Origin: Leisingera aquaemixtae
Lineage (GTDB): Bacteria > Pseudomonadota > Alphaproteobacteria > Rhodobacterales > Rhodobacteraceae
DNA: 61,210 nt
Reading direction: 5' to 3'
NCBI RefSeq assembly: GCF_001458395.1
Contig: NZ_CYSR01000005.1
Coordinates: 1 to 61,210, forward strand
The translations under genes were made by a program, and so were the position numbers. The notes beneath the pieces were generated by a model. It made no database searches and had not been told where the DNA came from. It saw only the letters and a program-made list of their open reading frames with translations. How positions within the stretch are numbered: position 1 is the stretch's first letter; the number at the start of each line of letters is the position of its first letter. Shown here one piece after another: positions 45,234 through 53,088 of this stretch.

Positions 45234-45914
45234 ATGCTGCGCACAGGACGATTACCGGATTTCCGTCGCCGCCACAGGTCGGTGCTAGCGGTTGTGGCCG
45301 TCGCTTTGTTGCTGGTGCTTGTTCTTTGGAGGGCTGATGCTTTGCCGCCTGCAATGACGCGTGCAGACATTACAGCTTGGGTCGATGCGGCTGGCATCTT
45401 GGGGCCGCTGGTGATCGTAGGGCTCATGACTATGGCGATCGTTGCCAGCCCTTTGCCTTCAGCTCCTGTAGCGGTGGCAGCCGGGGCGGTCTACGGGCAT
45501 GTGCTGGGCACCGGTCTCGTTGCACTGGGGGCCGAGTTGGGAGCGATCATCGCCTTTCTGATTGCCCGGCGGTTGGGGCGCTCGGCTATTCAGCGCTATC
45601 TGGGTGCTAAGCTTGAGACAGGTCTCATGGGATCGCAGAATGCACTGATGCTGACGGTGTTTGGCAGCCGTCTTTTGCCCTTCGTTTCATTTGACTTGAT
45701 CAGCTATGCAGCAGGGCTGACTGCATTGCGGTTCTGGCGCTTCGCACTCGCAACTGCGGCGGGCATTTTGCCAGCGAGCTTCATCCTGGCGCATCTTGGC
45801 AGTGAGCTGGTCGGGCCTGATGGACCTAGTGCCATCTGGGCAGTGCTGGGGCTAGGGCTGCTGACCGGAGCACCTCTTCTTTGGGCAGCCTGGAAGCGAG
45901 AGCAAGGCGGTTGA
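45234..45914 (+). CDS. TVP38/TMEM64-family membrane protein
   Basis: A 226-residue inner-membrane protein of the DedA-like/SNARE-associated fold. It has an N-terminal helix (about 18-35), paired re-entrant regions with PVAVAAGAVYGHVLGTGLVALGAELGAIIAFLIARRLGR, and ...GSRLLPFVSFDLISYAAGLTALRFWRF, the family signature. Members move lipids or ions, and many sit in metal operons. GGAAGG precedes the ATG. A motif-bearing 218-base gap separates it from dsbA, so it probably has its own promoter. Confidence 0.85.
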   Translation: MLRTGRLPDFRRRHRSVLAVVAVALLLVLVLWRADALPPAMTRADITAWVDAAGILGPLVIVGLMTMAIVASPLPSAPVAVAAGAVYGHVLGTGLVALGAELGAIIAFLIARRLGRSAIQRYLGAKLETGLMGSQNALMLTVFGSRLLPFVSFDLISYAAGLTALRFWRFALATAAGILPASFILAHLGSELVGPDGPSAIWAVLGLGLLTGAPLLWAAWKREQGG

Positions 45915-45977
45915 GGCAAATCAAGGCCTCCGGGTAAATAACATGTAGACTTGAGTAGTCATTTGGAGAAGCGGATC

Positions 45978-46379: not shown

Positions 46380-46458
46380 ACCAACCACCCGGTCCAGTTG
46401 AGCGCCCAGCCAAGCGGCCCGGTTCACATGCTGTGTGGTGTGTTCAGGAGTTCGAGAA

Positions 46459-46833
46459 GTGTTTGCCATACTCTATTTTGCGACTGCAGCTCTGCTAGTC
46501 TTTGCTGTGCTGCGGCTTGGATGCGGCCCTTGCGCAACCGGTCAAGTTTCTGAGGTCGACCCCGAAAACGTGATGGCGCCCCCGCGTATCCCTGTCGTCA
46601 AGCTGGGCTGGGCGCTGAGCATTTTCCTGGCCGTGACTTATATGCTGTGTGTCGGCTTCGATCTGATCTTTCCGCAGTATGCGATGTACCGCGCTTGGAT
46701 CTCGCTGATGCCTGGCATGACGTGGCTCACAGCAACTTCCTTCCTGATCGGTCTAGCAGAAGCCTTTGCCTACGGTTGGTTCGTGGCACTCGTATTTGGG
46801 CCAATTTTCAACGTGATCGCCGCGCGTGGATGA
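46459..46833 (+). CDS. DUF5676-type membrane protein
   Basis: A 124-residue membrane protein with three hydrophobic segments and the DUF5676 core (VKLGWALSIFLAVTYMLCVGFD, MPGMTWLTATSFLIGLAEAFAYG, then VALVFGPIFNVIA). An extra N-terminal helix contains CGPC. The likely start is GTG at 46459 with AGGAG upstream. The family is widespread in metal-resistance islands; its role is not established. Confidence 0.75.
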   Translation: MFAILYFATAALLVFAVLRLGCGPCATGQVSEVDPENVMAPPRIPVVKLGWALSIFLAVTYMLCVGFDLIFPQYAMYRAWISLMPGMTWLTATSFLIGLAEAFAYGWFVALVFGPIFNVIAARG

Positions 46834-46893: not shown

Positions 46894-48279
46894 ATGAGCA
46901 AGTCGCAGCAACCGACCCTGCGCTTCCTCGGGGCCACCGGGACCGTCACTGGATCCCGCTACCTCGTTGAATGGCGCAGTCGCAGGATCCTGATCGATTG
47001 CGGACTGTTTCAAGGGTTCAAGCAGCTCCGCTTACGCAATCGGAAGCCTTTTCCGGTTCGGCCTCGATCTATCGATACTGTTCTCCTGACACATGCACAT
47101 CTCGATCATTCCGGCTATATCCCTGCGCTGGTTAAGGCAGAGTTCGCGGGCAAGGTCATTTGCACACAATCGACTAAGGAATTGTGCGGCTTGATCCTGC
47201 CCGACAGTGGACATCTGCAGGAGGAAGAGGCGTCCTTTGCCCGCCGTAAGAAGTATTCGGTCCATGCCCGCCCGACCCCCCTTTACACGCGAAAGGATGC
47301 GCAGAAGGCGCTGAGCAAGCTGGAAACTGTGCCATTCGACATGCCAGTCGATTTAGGCGACGGGATCACGGCCAACTTCATCCCGGCAGGGCATTTGCTC
47401 GGAGCGGCGCAAATACGATTATGCCTTGGTAGCACGGAATTGCATTTCAGCGGTGACCTCGGCCGTCAAAGCGACCCTTTGATGCGCTCTCCAACCCCGT
47501 TTGCGGGGGCGGACGTCCTCGTGTGTGAATCCACCTATGGCAACCGCCAGCATGAGCCTGTCGATGCCGAAGCGCAGCTCTCCCGTGTTATCCGCCGAGT
47601 TATCGGGCGGGGCGGAACAATCCTAATCCCGGCCTTTGCGGTAGGGCGGGCACAGGGGCTGATGTATCACATCGCGCGGCTTCGCAAACGCGGTGATATT
47701 CCCGAAGTGCCGGTCTTTCTAAACAGCCCGATGGCAACAAATGCCACCGAGATTTATCACCGCCATCACAAGGAGCATAAGGTCAGCTGGGCCGAATGCT
47801 CGGATATGTTTGAGCTCGCCAAGCGTGTGCGTTCTGTCGAAGAATCCAAGCAGCTCAACACCATGCCTTTCCCCAAAATCATCATTTCAGCCAGCGGCAT
47901 GCTGACTGGAGGACGTATTCTGCATCACGTTCTTTCATATGGAGGAGACCGCCGGAACGCGATCCTGTTGTCGGGGTTCCAGGTCGGCGGCACGCGCGGT
48001 GCCGCGCTTGCCGCCGGAGCGGATCACTTGCGCATCTTTGGGCGTGACATCCCGATCGAGGCCGAGGTGATCTCTCTAGGCAGCTTGTCCGGCCATGCCG
48101 ATGCCGACGAGCTGCTTGAATGGCTGGGCGCTGCGCCGGTTCCTCCCCGGATGACCTATGTGACTCACGGTGAGCCAGAAGCGGCGGACGCGCTGCGTTT
48201 TCGCGTCAACCATGAACTGGGCTGGAAAGCGAGGGTGCCAGAGCACCTCGAAACAATCCGTTTGGAGACGCCGCGATGA
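46894..48279 (+). CDS. Beta-CASP metallo-beta-lactamase-fold RNA-processing nuclease
   Basis: A 461-residue cytoplasmic zinc nuclease. Metallo-beta-lactamase motifs: FLGATGTVTGSRY, HAHLDHSGYIP (HxHxDH), AGHLLGAAQI and HFSGDLG. The beta-CASP motifs follow: CESTYGN, PAFAVGRAQGLMY, SASGMLTGGR and SLSGHADADELL. It likely cleaves or trims RNA, giving 5'-nucleotides. Its stop overlaps the phosphorylase start by four bases. AGAGGAG precedes the ATG. Confidence 0.92.
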   Translation: MSKSQQPTLRFLGATGTVTGSRYLVEWRSRRILIDCGLFQGFKQLRLRNRKPFPVRPRSIDTVLLTHAHLDHSGYIPALVKAEFAGKVICTQSTKELCGLILPDSGHLQEEEASFARRKKYSVHARPTPLYTRKDAQKALSKLETVPFDMPVDLGDGITANFIPAGHLLGAAQIRLCLGSTELHFSGDLGRQSDPLMRSPTPFAGADVLVCESTYGNRQHEPVDAEAQLSRVIRRVIGRGGTILIPAFAVGRAQGLMYHIARLRKRGDIPEVPVFLNSPMATNATEIYHRHHKEHKVSWAECSDMFELAKRVRSVEESKQLNTMPFPKIIISASGMLTGGRILHHVLSYGGDRRNAILLSGFQVGGTRGAALAAGADHLRIFGRDIPIEAEVISLGSLSGHADADELLEWLGAAPVPPRMTYVTHGEPEAADALRFRVNHELGWKARVPEHLETIRLETPR

Positions 48280-49781
48280 CACGTGAGAGACATTGCCTTC
48301 CGCTAGTACGGGCAGAAATAGACACTTACAGCCAGCCTGTCGTCTTCATGCATCAGGACTGCCATGTTTGCCGCGCCGAAGGATTTCGTGCGCTGACCCG
48401 GGTGCGGATCGCCTGCGGCGGACGGTCGGTGATTGCATCGCTGAACGTTGTCACCGGGGCAGGATGGCTGGGGCCGGAAGCGGCAGCGCTATCCGACGCA
48501 GCTTGGGCTGCATTGCGGCCAAGGCTGGGTGATATGGGCCAGTTCTCCCACCCCGAACTGCCAGAGGCGGCTTCGTTAATCCGCGCCAAGGTCTATGGTG
48601 AGCGGCTGCACCAAGCGCAATTCGCCACGATCATAAAAGATGCGCTGGCACACCGGCTGTCGGATTTGGATCTGGCTGCCTTCGTAACGGCTTGTGCAGG
48701 AGAGCATCTGAGTACCTGTGAAACCATCGCTTTGACCCGTGCCATGCAGGAGGCTGGCAGATCACTGGAATGGGGCGAAGGGCCTGTGCCGGACAAGCAT
48801 TGCGTTGGCGGATTGCCCGGGAACCGCACCACACCGATCGTAGTGGCCATCGTCGCGGCAGCAGGGCTTGTGATCCCCAAGACATCCAGCCGTGCCATTA
48901 CTTCGCCTTCAGGGACCGCTGACACAATGGAGGTAATGGCTCCGGTGGCGCTCGATACTGCTGCCATGCGCAAGGTTGTCGAAGCGCAGGGTGGCTGCAT
49001 CGTTTGGGGCGGTGCCTTGGGGCTTAGCCCGGCCGACGACATACTGATCCGCATTGAGCGGCCTCTCGACTTTGACAGCGACGGGCAATTGGTTGCCAGC
49101 ATTCTCTCCAAAAAGGCGGCGGCCGGATCGGACCGTGTCGTGATCGACATCCCTGTGGGCCCCACCGCGAAAGTGCGTTCGGAAAATGCGGCCGAAGCCC
49201 TGTCGGCGCGGCTGCGCGCCACAGCCCGGGCGATTGGATTGGACCTGGCGATTCATGTCAGCGACGGCAGCCAGCCAGTAGGGTGCGGGATCGGTCCGGC
49301 ACTCGAGGCAATCGATGTGCTGAAGGTGCTGCGCCGTACACCGGATGCGCCGGGCGATCTGAGAGAACGGGCGCTGGTACTGGCTGGGCTCCTGCTGGAA
49401 ATGAGCGGAGAAACCGCAGGCGTTGAGCGGGCGAGGGTTTTGCTCGACAGCGGCGCAGCGGAGCATCGGTTCATGGCGATATGCGCGGCTCAGGGCGGGT
49501 TCGCCGAGCCTGCTGAGGCCCCCTACCGGATACCTGTTGAAGCCCCTCGCGATGGAGTGATCACAGCTATCGACAACCGCCTTATTGCCCGGGTGGCAAA
49601 ACTGGCCGGCGCCCCGCAGCAGGCCCGCGCAGGGGTGTTGCTTATGGCGCGGCCCGGGACACTGGTCCAGCGCGGACAACCCCTGTTCGAAATATGGGCT
49701 GAGACGCCGGGCGAATTGGCCTATGCCCGCGATTTTGCCAGCGCGCAGAAAGAGATTTTCCGCATTGAGGTGCCAAAATGA
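48276..49781 (+). CDS. AMP/thymidine phosphorylase family enzyme (archaeal DeoA-like)
   Basis: A 501-residue enzyme of the pyrimidine nucleoside phosphorylase family, longer than bacterial DeoA and resembling archaeal AMP phosphorylases. Diagnostic block: DKHCVGGLPGNRTTPIVVAI followed by IPKTSSRAITSPSGTADTME, with Lys, Ser and Thr residues of the phosphate and base site. An N-terminal about 90-residue extension precedes the catalytic part. It would cleave a nucleoside monophosphate (or nucleoside) with phosphate to base and ribose-1,5-bisphosphate (or ribose-1-phosphate). Start and stop both overlap their neighbours by four bases. Confidence 0.88.
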   Translation: MTRERHCLPLVRAEIDTYSQPVVFMHQDCHVCRAEGFRALTRVRIACGGRSVIASLNVVTGAGWLGPEAAALSDAAWAALRPRLGDMGQFSHPELPEAASLIRAKVYGERLHQAQFATIIKDALAHRLSDLDLAAFVTACAGEHLSTCETIALTRAMQEAGRSLEWGEGPVPDKHCVGGLPGNRTTPIVVAIVAAAGLVIPKTSSRAITSPSGTADTMEVMAPVALDTAAMRKVVEAQGGCIVWGGALGLSPADDILIRIERPLDFDSDGQLVASILSKKAAAGSDRVVIDIPVGPTAKVRSENAAEALSARLRATARAIGLDLAIHVSDGSQPVGCGIGPALEAIDVLKVLRRTPDAPGDLRERALVLAGLLLEMSGETAGVERARVLLDSGAAEHRFMAICAAQGGFAEPAEAPYRIPVEAPRDGVITAIDNRLIARVAKLAGAPQQARAGVLLMARPGTLVQRGQPLFEIWAETPGELAYARDFASAQKEIFRIEVPK

Positions 49782-50680
49782 GACCCGTTCTGATCCCATT
49801 TCACAATATGCGTCCACTGGCAGATCAACTGGCGGCGCTGATCGGGGCTGAAGTGGCGCCAGTGGACTGGCACCGGTTTCCGGATGGCGAGAGCCGGATA
49901 ACCCTGCATGGTGATCTCGAAGGCCGCGAGTCGGTGATCCTGTGTTCTTTGTGTGACCCGGACCGGCATGCGATGCCGCTGCGCTTTGCCGCTGATACGG
50001 CGCGCGAGATGGGCGCTGTACACGCCGGTCTAATTGCGCCCTATCTGGGGTACATGCGCCAGGACCGGAGGTTCCACTCTGGAGAGGCGGTTAGCGCCAG
50101 ATTGTTCGCCCGTTTCCTCGAGGAAAGCTTTGACTGGCTTGTGACGGTGGATCCGCATCTGCATCGGATCCAGGCCCTTGATGAGTTGTTTGCCATTCCC
50201 GCTGGCCGGGTTTCTGCTGCGCCACTGCTGGCACAGTGGATCGCGGAGACCGTTGAAAATCCGGTGTTGGTTGGCCCCGATCGCGAAAGCCGGCAATGGG
50301 TTGCGGAGGTCGCTTCGCTCGTCGGCTGTCCATACGAGGTTTTGCGCAAGGTGCGTTCCGGCGACCGCAGAGTTGAGGTTAGCAATTCCGGCCGCCAGTG
50401 GAGATGTTCCGGCACACCAGTTCTGGTCGATGATATTGCGTCCTCGGGGAGAACATTGGTCGGAGCAATCGAAAGGCTGGTGGAAGCCGGGGCCAAGCCG
50501 CCCCTGTGTGCGGTAATCCATGCAGTCTTTGCCGGGCAAGCTCACGCCGAGATTCTGGCCGCCGGGGCAAGCCAAGTCGTGACCACCGATACGATTCCTC
50601 ATGAAAGCAATGCTATCGGCATCGCCCCGCTTCTAGCCGAGGCGGCAATTCATACGCTGACTGCGTTGACCTTACAGTGA
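49778..50680 (+). CDS. prs: Ribose-phosphate pyrophosphokinase (PRPP synthase)
   Basis: A 300-residue PRPP synthetase-type protein. Motifs: FPDGESRITL, APYLGYMRQDRRFHSGEAV (ATP-binding loop), DPHLHRIQAL, and the PRPP loop VLVDDIASSGRTLVGAI. It makes PRPP from ribose-5-phosphate and ATP. A second chromosomal prs is expected for housekeeping; this copy is diverged and coupled to the phosphorylase gene, so it may serve salvage of phosphorolysis products. Whether it accepts ribose-1,5-bisphosphate is unknown. Confidence 0.88.
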   Translation: MRPVLIPFHNMRPLADQLAALIGAEVAPVDWHRFPDGESRITLHGDLEGRESVILCSLCDPDRHAMPLRFAADTAREMGAVHAGLIAPYLGYMRQDRRFHSGEAVSARLFARFLEESFDWLVTVDPHLHRIQALDELFAIPAGRVSAAPLLAQWIAETVENPVLVGPDRESRQWVAEVASLVGCPYEVLRKVRSGDRRVEVSNSGRQWRCSGTPVLVDDIASSGRTLVGAIERLVEAGAKPPLCAVIHAVFAGQAHAEILAAGASQVVTTDTIPHESNAIGIAPLLAEAAIHTLTALTLQ

Positions 50681-50727
50681 CTTGAAAACTCACGATGGCA
50701 GCATTCCCCAACCGGAAGGGCATTAAC

Positions 50728-53088
50728 ATGAACGAACTTCCCAACAAGAAAAGCTCCAGTTTAGCAGACGAAGACAAATTTGTTTGCCCGATGCATCCGC
50801 ACATTCGGAGCTCTGAAACTGAAAGCTGCCCGATTTGCGGCATGCACCTTGTCCCAGAAACTGGCAAGGAAACGGCCAGTCATGATCACCACCATGGGCA
50901 CGCAGCTTTCGGGCATGGAAAAACTGCTCTGAGTGGAGGTTATGACAAGGTTCCCATTGGCTGGGAAGGCCCTGTGTATACTTGCCCAATGCACCCGGAA
51001 GTTCGGCAAACCGAACCGGGCGCGTGCCCTCTTTGCGGGATGGGGCTGGAGCGAGAAGCAGGTTCTGCTGCGGAGGAGGGGCCAAACCCAGAACTCACCG
51101 ATTTCACCCGGCGGCTCTGGGCCGGTGCGATACTTACAGTTCCACTATTGGTTCTTACCATGGGGCCCTTTGCCGGCCTGGCAGGTGTCCGGGATATTTT
51201 CGGGGAACGTAACACACTCTGGATTGAACTGCTTCTTGGCTCGCCGGTTGTCTGGTGGAGCGGCTGGCCGTTTCTTGTTCGCGGCTGGAACTCGTTCCGC
51301 ACCATGAACCTCAATATGTTCAGCTTGATCAGCATGGGAGTGGCGGCGGCCTGGCTATTCAGCGTTGCAGCAGTACTTGCACCGGGCATGTTCCCTGACG
51401 GCTTCCGTGACGCCGAAGGGCATGTCGGCGTCTATTTTGAGGCTGCGGCAGTGATTGTCACGCTTGTTCTGTTGGGGCAGGTGATGGAATTGCGGGCCCG
51501 GGAAGGGACCGGGCGGGCGATCCGTGCGCTACTGGATATGGCGCCCAAGACCGCACGGGTGATCCGCATCGGTGGACAGGAAGAAGAGATCCCCCTGGAT
51601 GAGGTGCAGGTGGGAGACCGGCTGAGGGTAAGGCCGGGAGACAAGGTGCCGGTGGACGGCACGGTGTTGGAGGGACGTTCCTCGGTCGACGAAAGCATGA
51701 TTTCCGGAGAGCCTGTCCCGGTCGAGAAGGTCGAGGGTTCCAGTGTTACAGGTGCGACGATCAATGGCACCGGGTCATTGGTGATTGAAGCCACGAGAGT
51801 CGGGGCCGACACGATGTTGTCCCAGATCGTCGATATGGTGGCTAAGGCGCAGAAAAGCCGCGCACCAATCCAGAAGTATGCCGACAAGGTGGCAGGCTGG
51901 TTTGTTCCGGCCGTGATTGCTGTTGCGGTTCTGGCTTTTGCCGGATGGGCGATCTGGGGTCCGGCTCCTGCGCTGAGCTATGGCCTGGTCGCGGCGGTCG
52001 CCGTATTGATCATCGCCTGTCCCTGCGCGCTTGGCTTGGCGACGCCGATGTCGATCATGACCGCGACCGGCCGGGGTGCGCAGGCCGGTGTGCTCATCAA
52101 GAACGCCGAGGCGCTTGAGCGGTTCGAAAAGGTGGACACGCTGATTGTCGACAAGACAGGTACCCTGACCGAGGGCAAGCCGCGCCTGATCGCGGTTGTG
52201 CCCGAGCCGGGCCATGAAGAAGCAGAAGTGCTGCGGCTGGCGGCGACGTTGGAGAAAGGCTCGGAGCACCCTTTGGCCGAGGCCATCGTGACCGGAGCGC
52301 TGGAACGGGGCATCAAACTCGGTGAGGCCACGGAATTTGATGCAGTCACCGGGAAGGGGGTGCAGGGGCGTGTGGACGGCCATGCGGTGGCGCTTGGCAA
52401 CCTCCGCCTGGTAGCGGACCTGGGGCTGGAGGCTGCCGGTCTTGCTTCTACGGCCGATGCCCGTCGGGATCAGGGTGAAACCGTAATGTTCGTGGTACTA
52501 TATGGCGCCGTGGCCGGCCTGGCGGCCGTTGCCGATCCGGTGAAGGAAACGACCCCTTCCGCGCTGAAGGCGCTGCATGATCTGGGCTTCCGCATCATCA
52601 TGGCCACCGGCGACAATGAGCGCACGGCCCGCGCCGTGGCCGGGAAGCTGGGTATCGACGAGATCCGCGCGGATGTGCTGCCGCAGGACAAAGCCCGAAT
52701 TATCCGCGAGTTGCAGGAACAGGGGTGCAGCGTCGCCATGGCCGGGGACGGCGTGAATGACGCGCCCGCGCTGGCACAGGCGGATGTCGGTATCGCCATG
52801 GGCACCGGCGCCGACGTGGCCATCGAAAGTGCGGGTTTCACTCTGGTCAAGGGCAACCTGGACGGCATTGTGCGGGCCCGGCGCTTGGCGCGCGCGACCA
52901 TGCGCAACATCCGCCAGAACCTGTTCTTTGCGTTGATCTACAATGCCTCCGGGGTGCCGGTCGCGGCCGGGGTACTGTTTCCGTTCTTCGGCATTCTGAT
53001 CAGTCCGATGTTTGCCGCTTTTGCAATGAGCGCGTCATCAGTTTCCGTGGTGCTCAATTCCCTGCGCCTACGCGGGGTAAAGATATGA
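50728..53088 (+). CDS. copA: Copper-transporting P1B-type ATPase with tandem heavy-metal-binding domains
   Basis: A 786-residue metal-exporting ATPase. Two CPMHP…CPICGM-type heavy-metal-binding domains (about 20-45 and 85-115) flank a His-rich linker ([14 protein letters not shown]). Eight membrane helices follow the P1B plan with transmembrane metal site CPCALG, phosphorylation site DKTGTLT, HP motif [11 protein letters not shown]-binding [10 protein letters not shown] and hinge [10 protein letters not shown]. The final helix has [17 protein letters not shown] plus the NAS-Y and SxxS patterns indicate Cu+ or Ag+ export. ATG at 50728 has AAGGG upstream; 50695 is an alternative. Confidence 0.93.

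Follow-up and report, generated by a model that had tools for sequence, protein, structure and literature searches.

Archaeal AMP phosphorylase converts nucleoside monophosphates (NMPs) to ribose-1,5-bisphosphate (R15P), and PhnN, the ribose-1,5-bisphosphokinase of phosphonate metabolism, converts R15P to phosphoribosyl pyrophosphate (PRPP). Here we analyzed a 61,210-nucleotide stretch of DNA from Leisingera aquaemixtae (contig NZ_CYSR01000005.1; the whole stretch is referred to as the window), in which three co-directional open reading frames (ORFs) on the plus strand encode a beta-CASP metallo-beta-lactamase (MBL) nuclease (461 amino acids, 46894..48279), an AMP-phosphorylase-type nucleotide phosphorylase designated TP2 (501 amino acids, 48276..49781) and a PRPP-synthase homologue with an altered pyrophosphate loop, PD-x-E-S-x-Q-W (300 amino acids, 49778..50680). 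ATGA overlaps join the nuclease to TP2 and TP2 to the synthase homologue. A first-pass annotation had assigned the genes to these three families and reported four-base overlaps throughout; profile and Pfam matches bear out the families, and the overlaps are real at both junctions, of which there are two rather than three. Our direct observations are those of gene content, gene order, family membership and residues only. The trio is real and conserved, and probably misnamed in annotation. We lean, with modest conviction, towards the reading that it represents a bacterial nucleotide-to-ribose salvage module centred on R15P, in which the synthase homologue would link R15P to the pool of ribose-5-phosphate (R5P) and PRPP. 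The nuclease, where present, would trim RNA to 5'-nucleotides; TP2 would phosphorolyse NMPs to the free base and R15P, as suggested by its family, its residues and its fusions to PhnN; the co-inherited synthase homologue would connect R15P to the R5P/PRPP pool; and R5P would enter the pentose pathway.

The pair formed by TP2 and the synthase homologue is the most constant part of the locus. In genome contigs 227 relatives were confirmed; among the best 80, the synthase lies directly downstream of TP2 in all 80 and the nuclease directly upstream in 76, the others being L005, L006, L078 and L080 (in L006 just 568 bases precede TP2). Because the nearest relatives keep these neighbors so consistently, the linkage is not a matter of chance. 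We then considered a diverse set of 397 Pseudomonadota genomes, in which TP2 was counted over the NF003338 cut-off of 434 and the synthase subfamily at E<=1e-60; ORF calls in GC-rich loci are approximate. TP2 is present in 46 genomes, not counting G210 with its sub-cut-off copy containing one internal stop, and the synthase subfamily in 44, with 42 of these over the subfamily's own cut-off. Both occur together in 42 genomes carrying 20 family labels (hypergeometric figure 1.4e-49, relatedness ignored), and in 41 of the 42 the synthase is the next gene after TP2 and has its orientation, the exception being G239, where the synthase precedes TP2 by about 4 kb. In a second sample, in which 76 of 369 genomes matched TP2 and which overlaps the first by at least two genomes (G254, G378), the synthase stands beside TP2 in 28 of the best 30 loci, the exceptions being L194, a fusion, and L222. 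The pair is also found on many plasmids. The nuclease is a looser partner: 20 of these 42 genomes, from 11 families, have it linked to the pair, on either the upstream or the downstream side. Thus, the proposal of a conserved three-gene unit holds for the TP2/synthase pair and not strictly for the nuclease. A long open frame in G145 that resembled a nuclease-TP2 fusion was rejected, since its coordinates resolve it into two genes in different frames.

Both peptides that had been quoted as an archaeal AMP-phosphorylase signature are located in the second ORF. In public records TP2 is annotated as a thymidine phosphorylase family protein, and one would predict from this name, found in the plasmid-record annotation and in the title of model NF003338 (PRK04350; TP2 scores 624.4 bits against the cut-off of 434), that it acts on thymidine or pyrimidine nucleosides. 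However, TP2 falls under the cut-off of all four DeoA/PyNP models that it matches: PRK05820 (186 versus 269), TIGR02643 (136 versus 571), TIGR02644 (176 versus 409) and PRK06078 (134 versus 559). All 54 TP2 rows and both archaeal rows have Glu at residue 261, and six PhnN-TP2 fusions have Thr, Asn or Val there; all three DeoA/PyNP rows have an Arg, which we take to bind the pyrimidine in E. coli thymidine phosphorylase. A further 36 positions, including Ser205, Thr209 and Ser210, are common to TP2, the six fusions and the two archaeal rows as against DeoA/PyNP. In a tree built with 18 of the 54 TP2 rows, and with the first 200 residues trimmed off the six fusions, TP2, the fusions and two haloarchaeal AMP phosphorylases split from the three DeoA/PyNP rows with support of 100/100; within this tree TP2 minus the fusions does not form a single branch, and one long fusion row and three rows of odd composition are flagged (a further fusion, L153, was left out of alignment and tree). 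In addition, a separate DeoA-like phosphorylase gene is present elsewhere in the window's genome, where the window copy is the only TP2 over cut-off, and the fusion to PhnN makes best sense if the product of TP2 is R15P. We therefore rejected the thymidine phosphorylase reading, which is very improbable in light of the profile scores, residue 261 and the tree. The AMP-type assignment of the first-pass annotation is well supported by the clade, the active-site residues and the fusion to PhnN.

These fusions provide the link to R15P. Four genomes (G338, G328, G254, G206) have TP2 over cut-off but lack the synthase, and in all of them PhnN precedes TP2 in frame; seven such fusions were found altogether (L095, L132, L133, L134, L135, L152, L153), those beyond the four genomes coming from Pacificitalea, a Variovorax SRS16 plasmid and a Paraburkholderia 22B1P plasmid. 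The PhnN and TP2 parts are both over their cut-offs in the five fusions on which profiles were run (L095 and those of the four genomes), while L152 and L153 rest on tblastn and an open frame, L152 also on its record annotation. Each of the seven is directly preceded by nadC in the same orientation. A coherent reading is that NadC would make nicotinate mononucleotide (NaMN) from quinolinate and PRPP, the TP2 part would split NaMN into nicotinate and R15P, and PhnN would remake PRPP, giving a predicted quinolinate-to-nicotinate decarboxylation with PRPP recycling. The fusions make R15P the probable shared product of the TP2 family, and a node at R15P is strongly implied. A different base in the fusions would predict residue changes such as those observed at Asn245, His250 and Asn258, which are invariant in the six aligned fusions; TP2 has Gly (54 of 54), Leu (52 of 54) and Ile (52 of 54) at these positions. 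L134 is further flanked by genes of the molybdenum-hydroxylase and FAD-binding monooxygenase types and by an MFS transporter.

If TP2 releases R15P, an exit for this compound is needed. The first-pass annotation had noted that no R15P isomerase lies near the trio, and this can be extended to 47 genomes, none of which has a match over the TIGR00511 cut-off; 23 weaker matches among them are presumably MtnA-like. The archaeal RuBisCO route was rejected on this ground, RuBisCO itself not having been searched for. PhnN was over cut-off in 13 of the 42 synthase-type genomes, the window's included, and was not found in the other 29, with up to 56 candidates scored per genome and a weaker, probable PhnN in G204. 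Since neither enzyme accounts for R15P in most of these genomes, another exit would be required, and among the genes inherited with TP2 we saw no candidate for it other than the synthase homologue. It belongs to subfamily NF005537 (PRK07199; 377 bits against a cut-off of 322), and its loop departs from the classical PD-x-G form in having Glu instead of Gly, the loops and motifs being given here the names that we take to be customary. In an alignment of 41 rows, the 40 TP2-linked copies have Glu170 throughout, Ser171 in 38, Trp174 in 39 and His129-Arg130 in all 40; the remaining row, a second copy in L144 lying 6.6 kb from TP2, has the classical loop and was counted outside. Residue 170 is Gly in the second, housekeeping-type PRPP synthase that the window's 4.61-Mb genome also encodes and in the five PDB chains shown (1u9y, 4twb, 1dkr, 7pn0, 5t3o). 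The altered loop is a lead toward altered chemistry, not proof of it. Taken together, the mutual exclusion with PhnN fusions, the absence of R15P isomerase and the altered loop led us to propose that the synthase homologue probably handles R15P. E-S-loop synthase homologues were also seen in L136 and L137, whose genomes have no TP2 over cut-off; next to L136 lies a gene for a chemoreceptor-like, protoglobin-domain protein.

Of the steps proposed, we are least sure that the synthase homologue converts R15P directly, and several findings weigh against this step or against the module as a whole. The FPDGE, RQD, DDI-S-G-T and K-R motifs are kept in the family alignment, so that the protein could be an ordinary PRPP synthase, and the window's genome has its own PhnN in a C-P lyase operon. 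TP2 reaches 433.3 bits against the archaeal AMP phosphorylase model TIGR03327, below its equivalog cut-off of 535 (506.5 for a Criblamydia copy, 338 for the Pacificitalea fusion). The two genes also occur apart: TP2 lacks an adjacent synthase in L094, L096, L154 and L151 (the second TP2 copy of G250), as well as in L222 within its 1.4 kb of sequence; the interrupted copy of G210 has neither synthase nor PhnN beside it; and G329 and G361 encode an NF005537 synthase, also with the E-S loop, without TP2. Finally, phosphoketolase, discussed below, was not found in the window's own genome, and ribose phosphate there would consequently enter the ordinary pentose pathway. The leading alternative is that the synthase works as an ordinary forward enzyme, making PRPP from R5P and ATP for the salvage of bases released by TP2, with R15P left to phosphatases or to PhnN encoded elsewhere. 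The retained catalytic motifs and the 13 genomes with PhnN, among them that of the window, are in its favor; the 29 genomes in which PhnN was not found, the Glu170 of every TP2-linked copy and the linked phosphoketolases, which would compete for pentose phosphate, speak against it, and we regard it as rather unlikely.

The salvage reading gains a possible outlet from genes of carbon metabolism beside the pair. Of 139 TP2 loci, 16 have a phosphoketolase nearby, 14 an acetate kinase and 12 both. One of these loci, L032 from Leisingera aquimarina (a congener of the window's nearest relative), combines nuclease, TP2, synthase, P-type ATPase and phosphoketolase. In seven loci (L066, L067, L074-L077, L079), which we assign to the order Xanthomonadales on our understanding of the record titles, nuclease, TP2, synthase, phosphoketolase and then acetate kinase follow on one strand, six of the seven with a P-type ATPase upstream and L066 with an ABC1-type kinase gene before acetate kinase. 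L070 and L080 are further loci with phosphoketolase and acetate kinase, outside the 16. G145 has, in order, synthase, phosphoketolase, nuclease, TP2, a phosphate acetyltransferase-like gene and acetate kinase, and in Criblamydia, a member of another phylum, phosphoketolase, alpha-glucan phosphorylase and an ATP-cone protein precede the trio and acetate kinase follows it. In L184, L185, L066 and others, genes for phosphoketolase, acetate kinase, the nuclease, TP2 and the synthase stand together in operon-like runs. Across the 397 genomes phosphoketolase is present in 15 of 46 with TP2 versus 54 of 351 others (p 0.007, relatedness ignored), and in five genomes it stands no more than about 12 kb from TP2, against about 0.1 expected by a rough estimate that likewise takes no account of relatedness. 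These neighbors suggest that RNA ribose can be burned to ATP: with linked phosphoketolase and acetate kinase, R5P would yield acetyl phosphate and ATP. As phosphoketolase needs pentose phosphate, flow toward R5P fits such loci better than conversion of R5P to PRPP. The recycling of ribose toward PRPP, as first envisaged, may thus apply to the PhnN fusions only; at synthase loci, formation of R5P and ATP fits at least as well.

Control by low oxygen is weakly hinted at by FNR-like sites, the commonest of 20 half-site permutations in 51 loci (62 versus 27 for the next). In the window, a putative site of this kind, the palindrome TTGAGGCAAATCAA with one mismatch (45911..45924, no strand assigned), lies about 980 bases upstream of the nuclease. 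A promoter scan found one match versus 2.1 expected.

The trio had also been placed inside a metal-resistance island. Upstream of it lie genes for a multicopper oxidase, a DsbA-like protein, a VTT-domain membrane protein and a DUF5676 protein with two transmembrane segments (46435..46833, plus strand, 60 bases upstream of the nuclease), the latter with relatives of at least 35% identity in 31 of the 80 close loci. Directly downstream follow an HMBD-type copper-translocating P-type ATPase (50695..53088, plus strand) and an amino-acid permease; the start codon of the ATPase is uncertain, as the annotation of a near-identical plasmid places it later. The nearest named relative that we found, a Leisingera aquaemixtae plasmid, has the same gene order and a TP2 98.2% identical (the window is contig C5 of its own assembly). 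One could imagine a copper-resistance function proper, in which the trio would be called on solely when RNA or ribosomes suffer copper damage. A P-type ATPase of at least 50% identity is indeed found within 1.6 kb downstream in 52 of the 73 close loci with room for it, and three plasmids typed as mobilizable or conjugative carry copper genes beside the trio; yet among 46 diverse loci clustering finds P-type ATPases in no more than 12 (9 by tblastn at 1e-25), and the Criblamydia locus consists mostly of sugar metabolism, though one cation P-type ATPase is listed there. This explanation therefore appears improbable. The link to copper depends on lineage and is strong in close relatives only: in these, mostly Alphaproteobacteria, the trio commonly sits in a copper setting, but such a setting does not define it.

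The nuclease contains the Pfam domains Beta-Casp, RMMBL and Lactamase_B; its nearest solved relative by sequence is RNase TTHA0252 (2dkf), and it scores 250.8 bits against the aCPSF1 model, below the cut-off of 580. A second beta-CASP nuclease, 61% identical, is encoded in the same genome (G000:C4:37135-38493, locus L187) near a sulfate permease and an RbbA-like ABC protein.

A bolder version of the salvage reading is that subfamily NF005537 represents a new R15P enzyme, catalyzing for example R15P + AMP -> R5P + ADP or R15P + ADP -> R5P + ATP, as part of an unrecognized RNA-ribose pathway; we put this forward tentatively, as possible but on balance doubtful. If true, NF005537, TP2, the nuclease and phosphoketolase/acetate kinase would together turn RNA ribose into ATP when oxygen is low or cells are stressed, as a RuBisCO-free counterpart of the archaeal AMP pathway. 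The module would account for a gene pair that is common in bacteria (42 of 397 Pseudomonadota genomes, many plasmids) and probably misnamed, would provide R15P with a fate in bacteria that needs no RuBisCO, and would suggest how cells convert surplus RNA to ribose phosphate or ATP. The complementary partners, PhnN or the PRPP-synthase homologue, make the R15P step directly testable.

Each part of the locus can be set beside described systems. The nuclease shares with RNase TTHA0252 and aCPSF1 the MBL, beta-CASP and RMMBL domains and the HAHLDH motif, and differs from aCPSF1 in that no KH domain was found in it by Pfam. TP2 resembles archaeal AMP phosphorylase in matching full-length archaeal-type profiles from residue 12-14 on, in matching 4ga4 at 301 bits (4ga4 and 4ga5, listed as putative thymidine phosphorylase, are structures that we take to be TkAMPpase), and in having Glu261 and the 36 other positions in common with the two haloarchaeal relatives; it differs in being coupled to a PRPP-synthase homologue or to PhnN. 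The synthase homologue matches the archaeal-type PRPP synthase 1u9y, presumably from Methanocaldococcus, at 139 bits and shares its FPD-x-E, Y-x-RQD and DDI-x-S-x-G-x-T motifs, whereas the PD-x-E-S loop and a DPHLHR motif set the TP2-linked subfamily apart. PhnN occupies the same partner slot, fused in frame to TP2 in the seven loci found, while the window's partner belongs to another family and the genome's own PhnN stands in the C-P lyase operon. In contrast to the archaeal AMP-to-RuBisCO pathway, in which R15P isomerase takes part, the pathway proposed here would pass R15P to the partner that is inherited with TP2.

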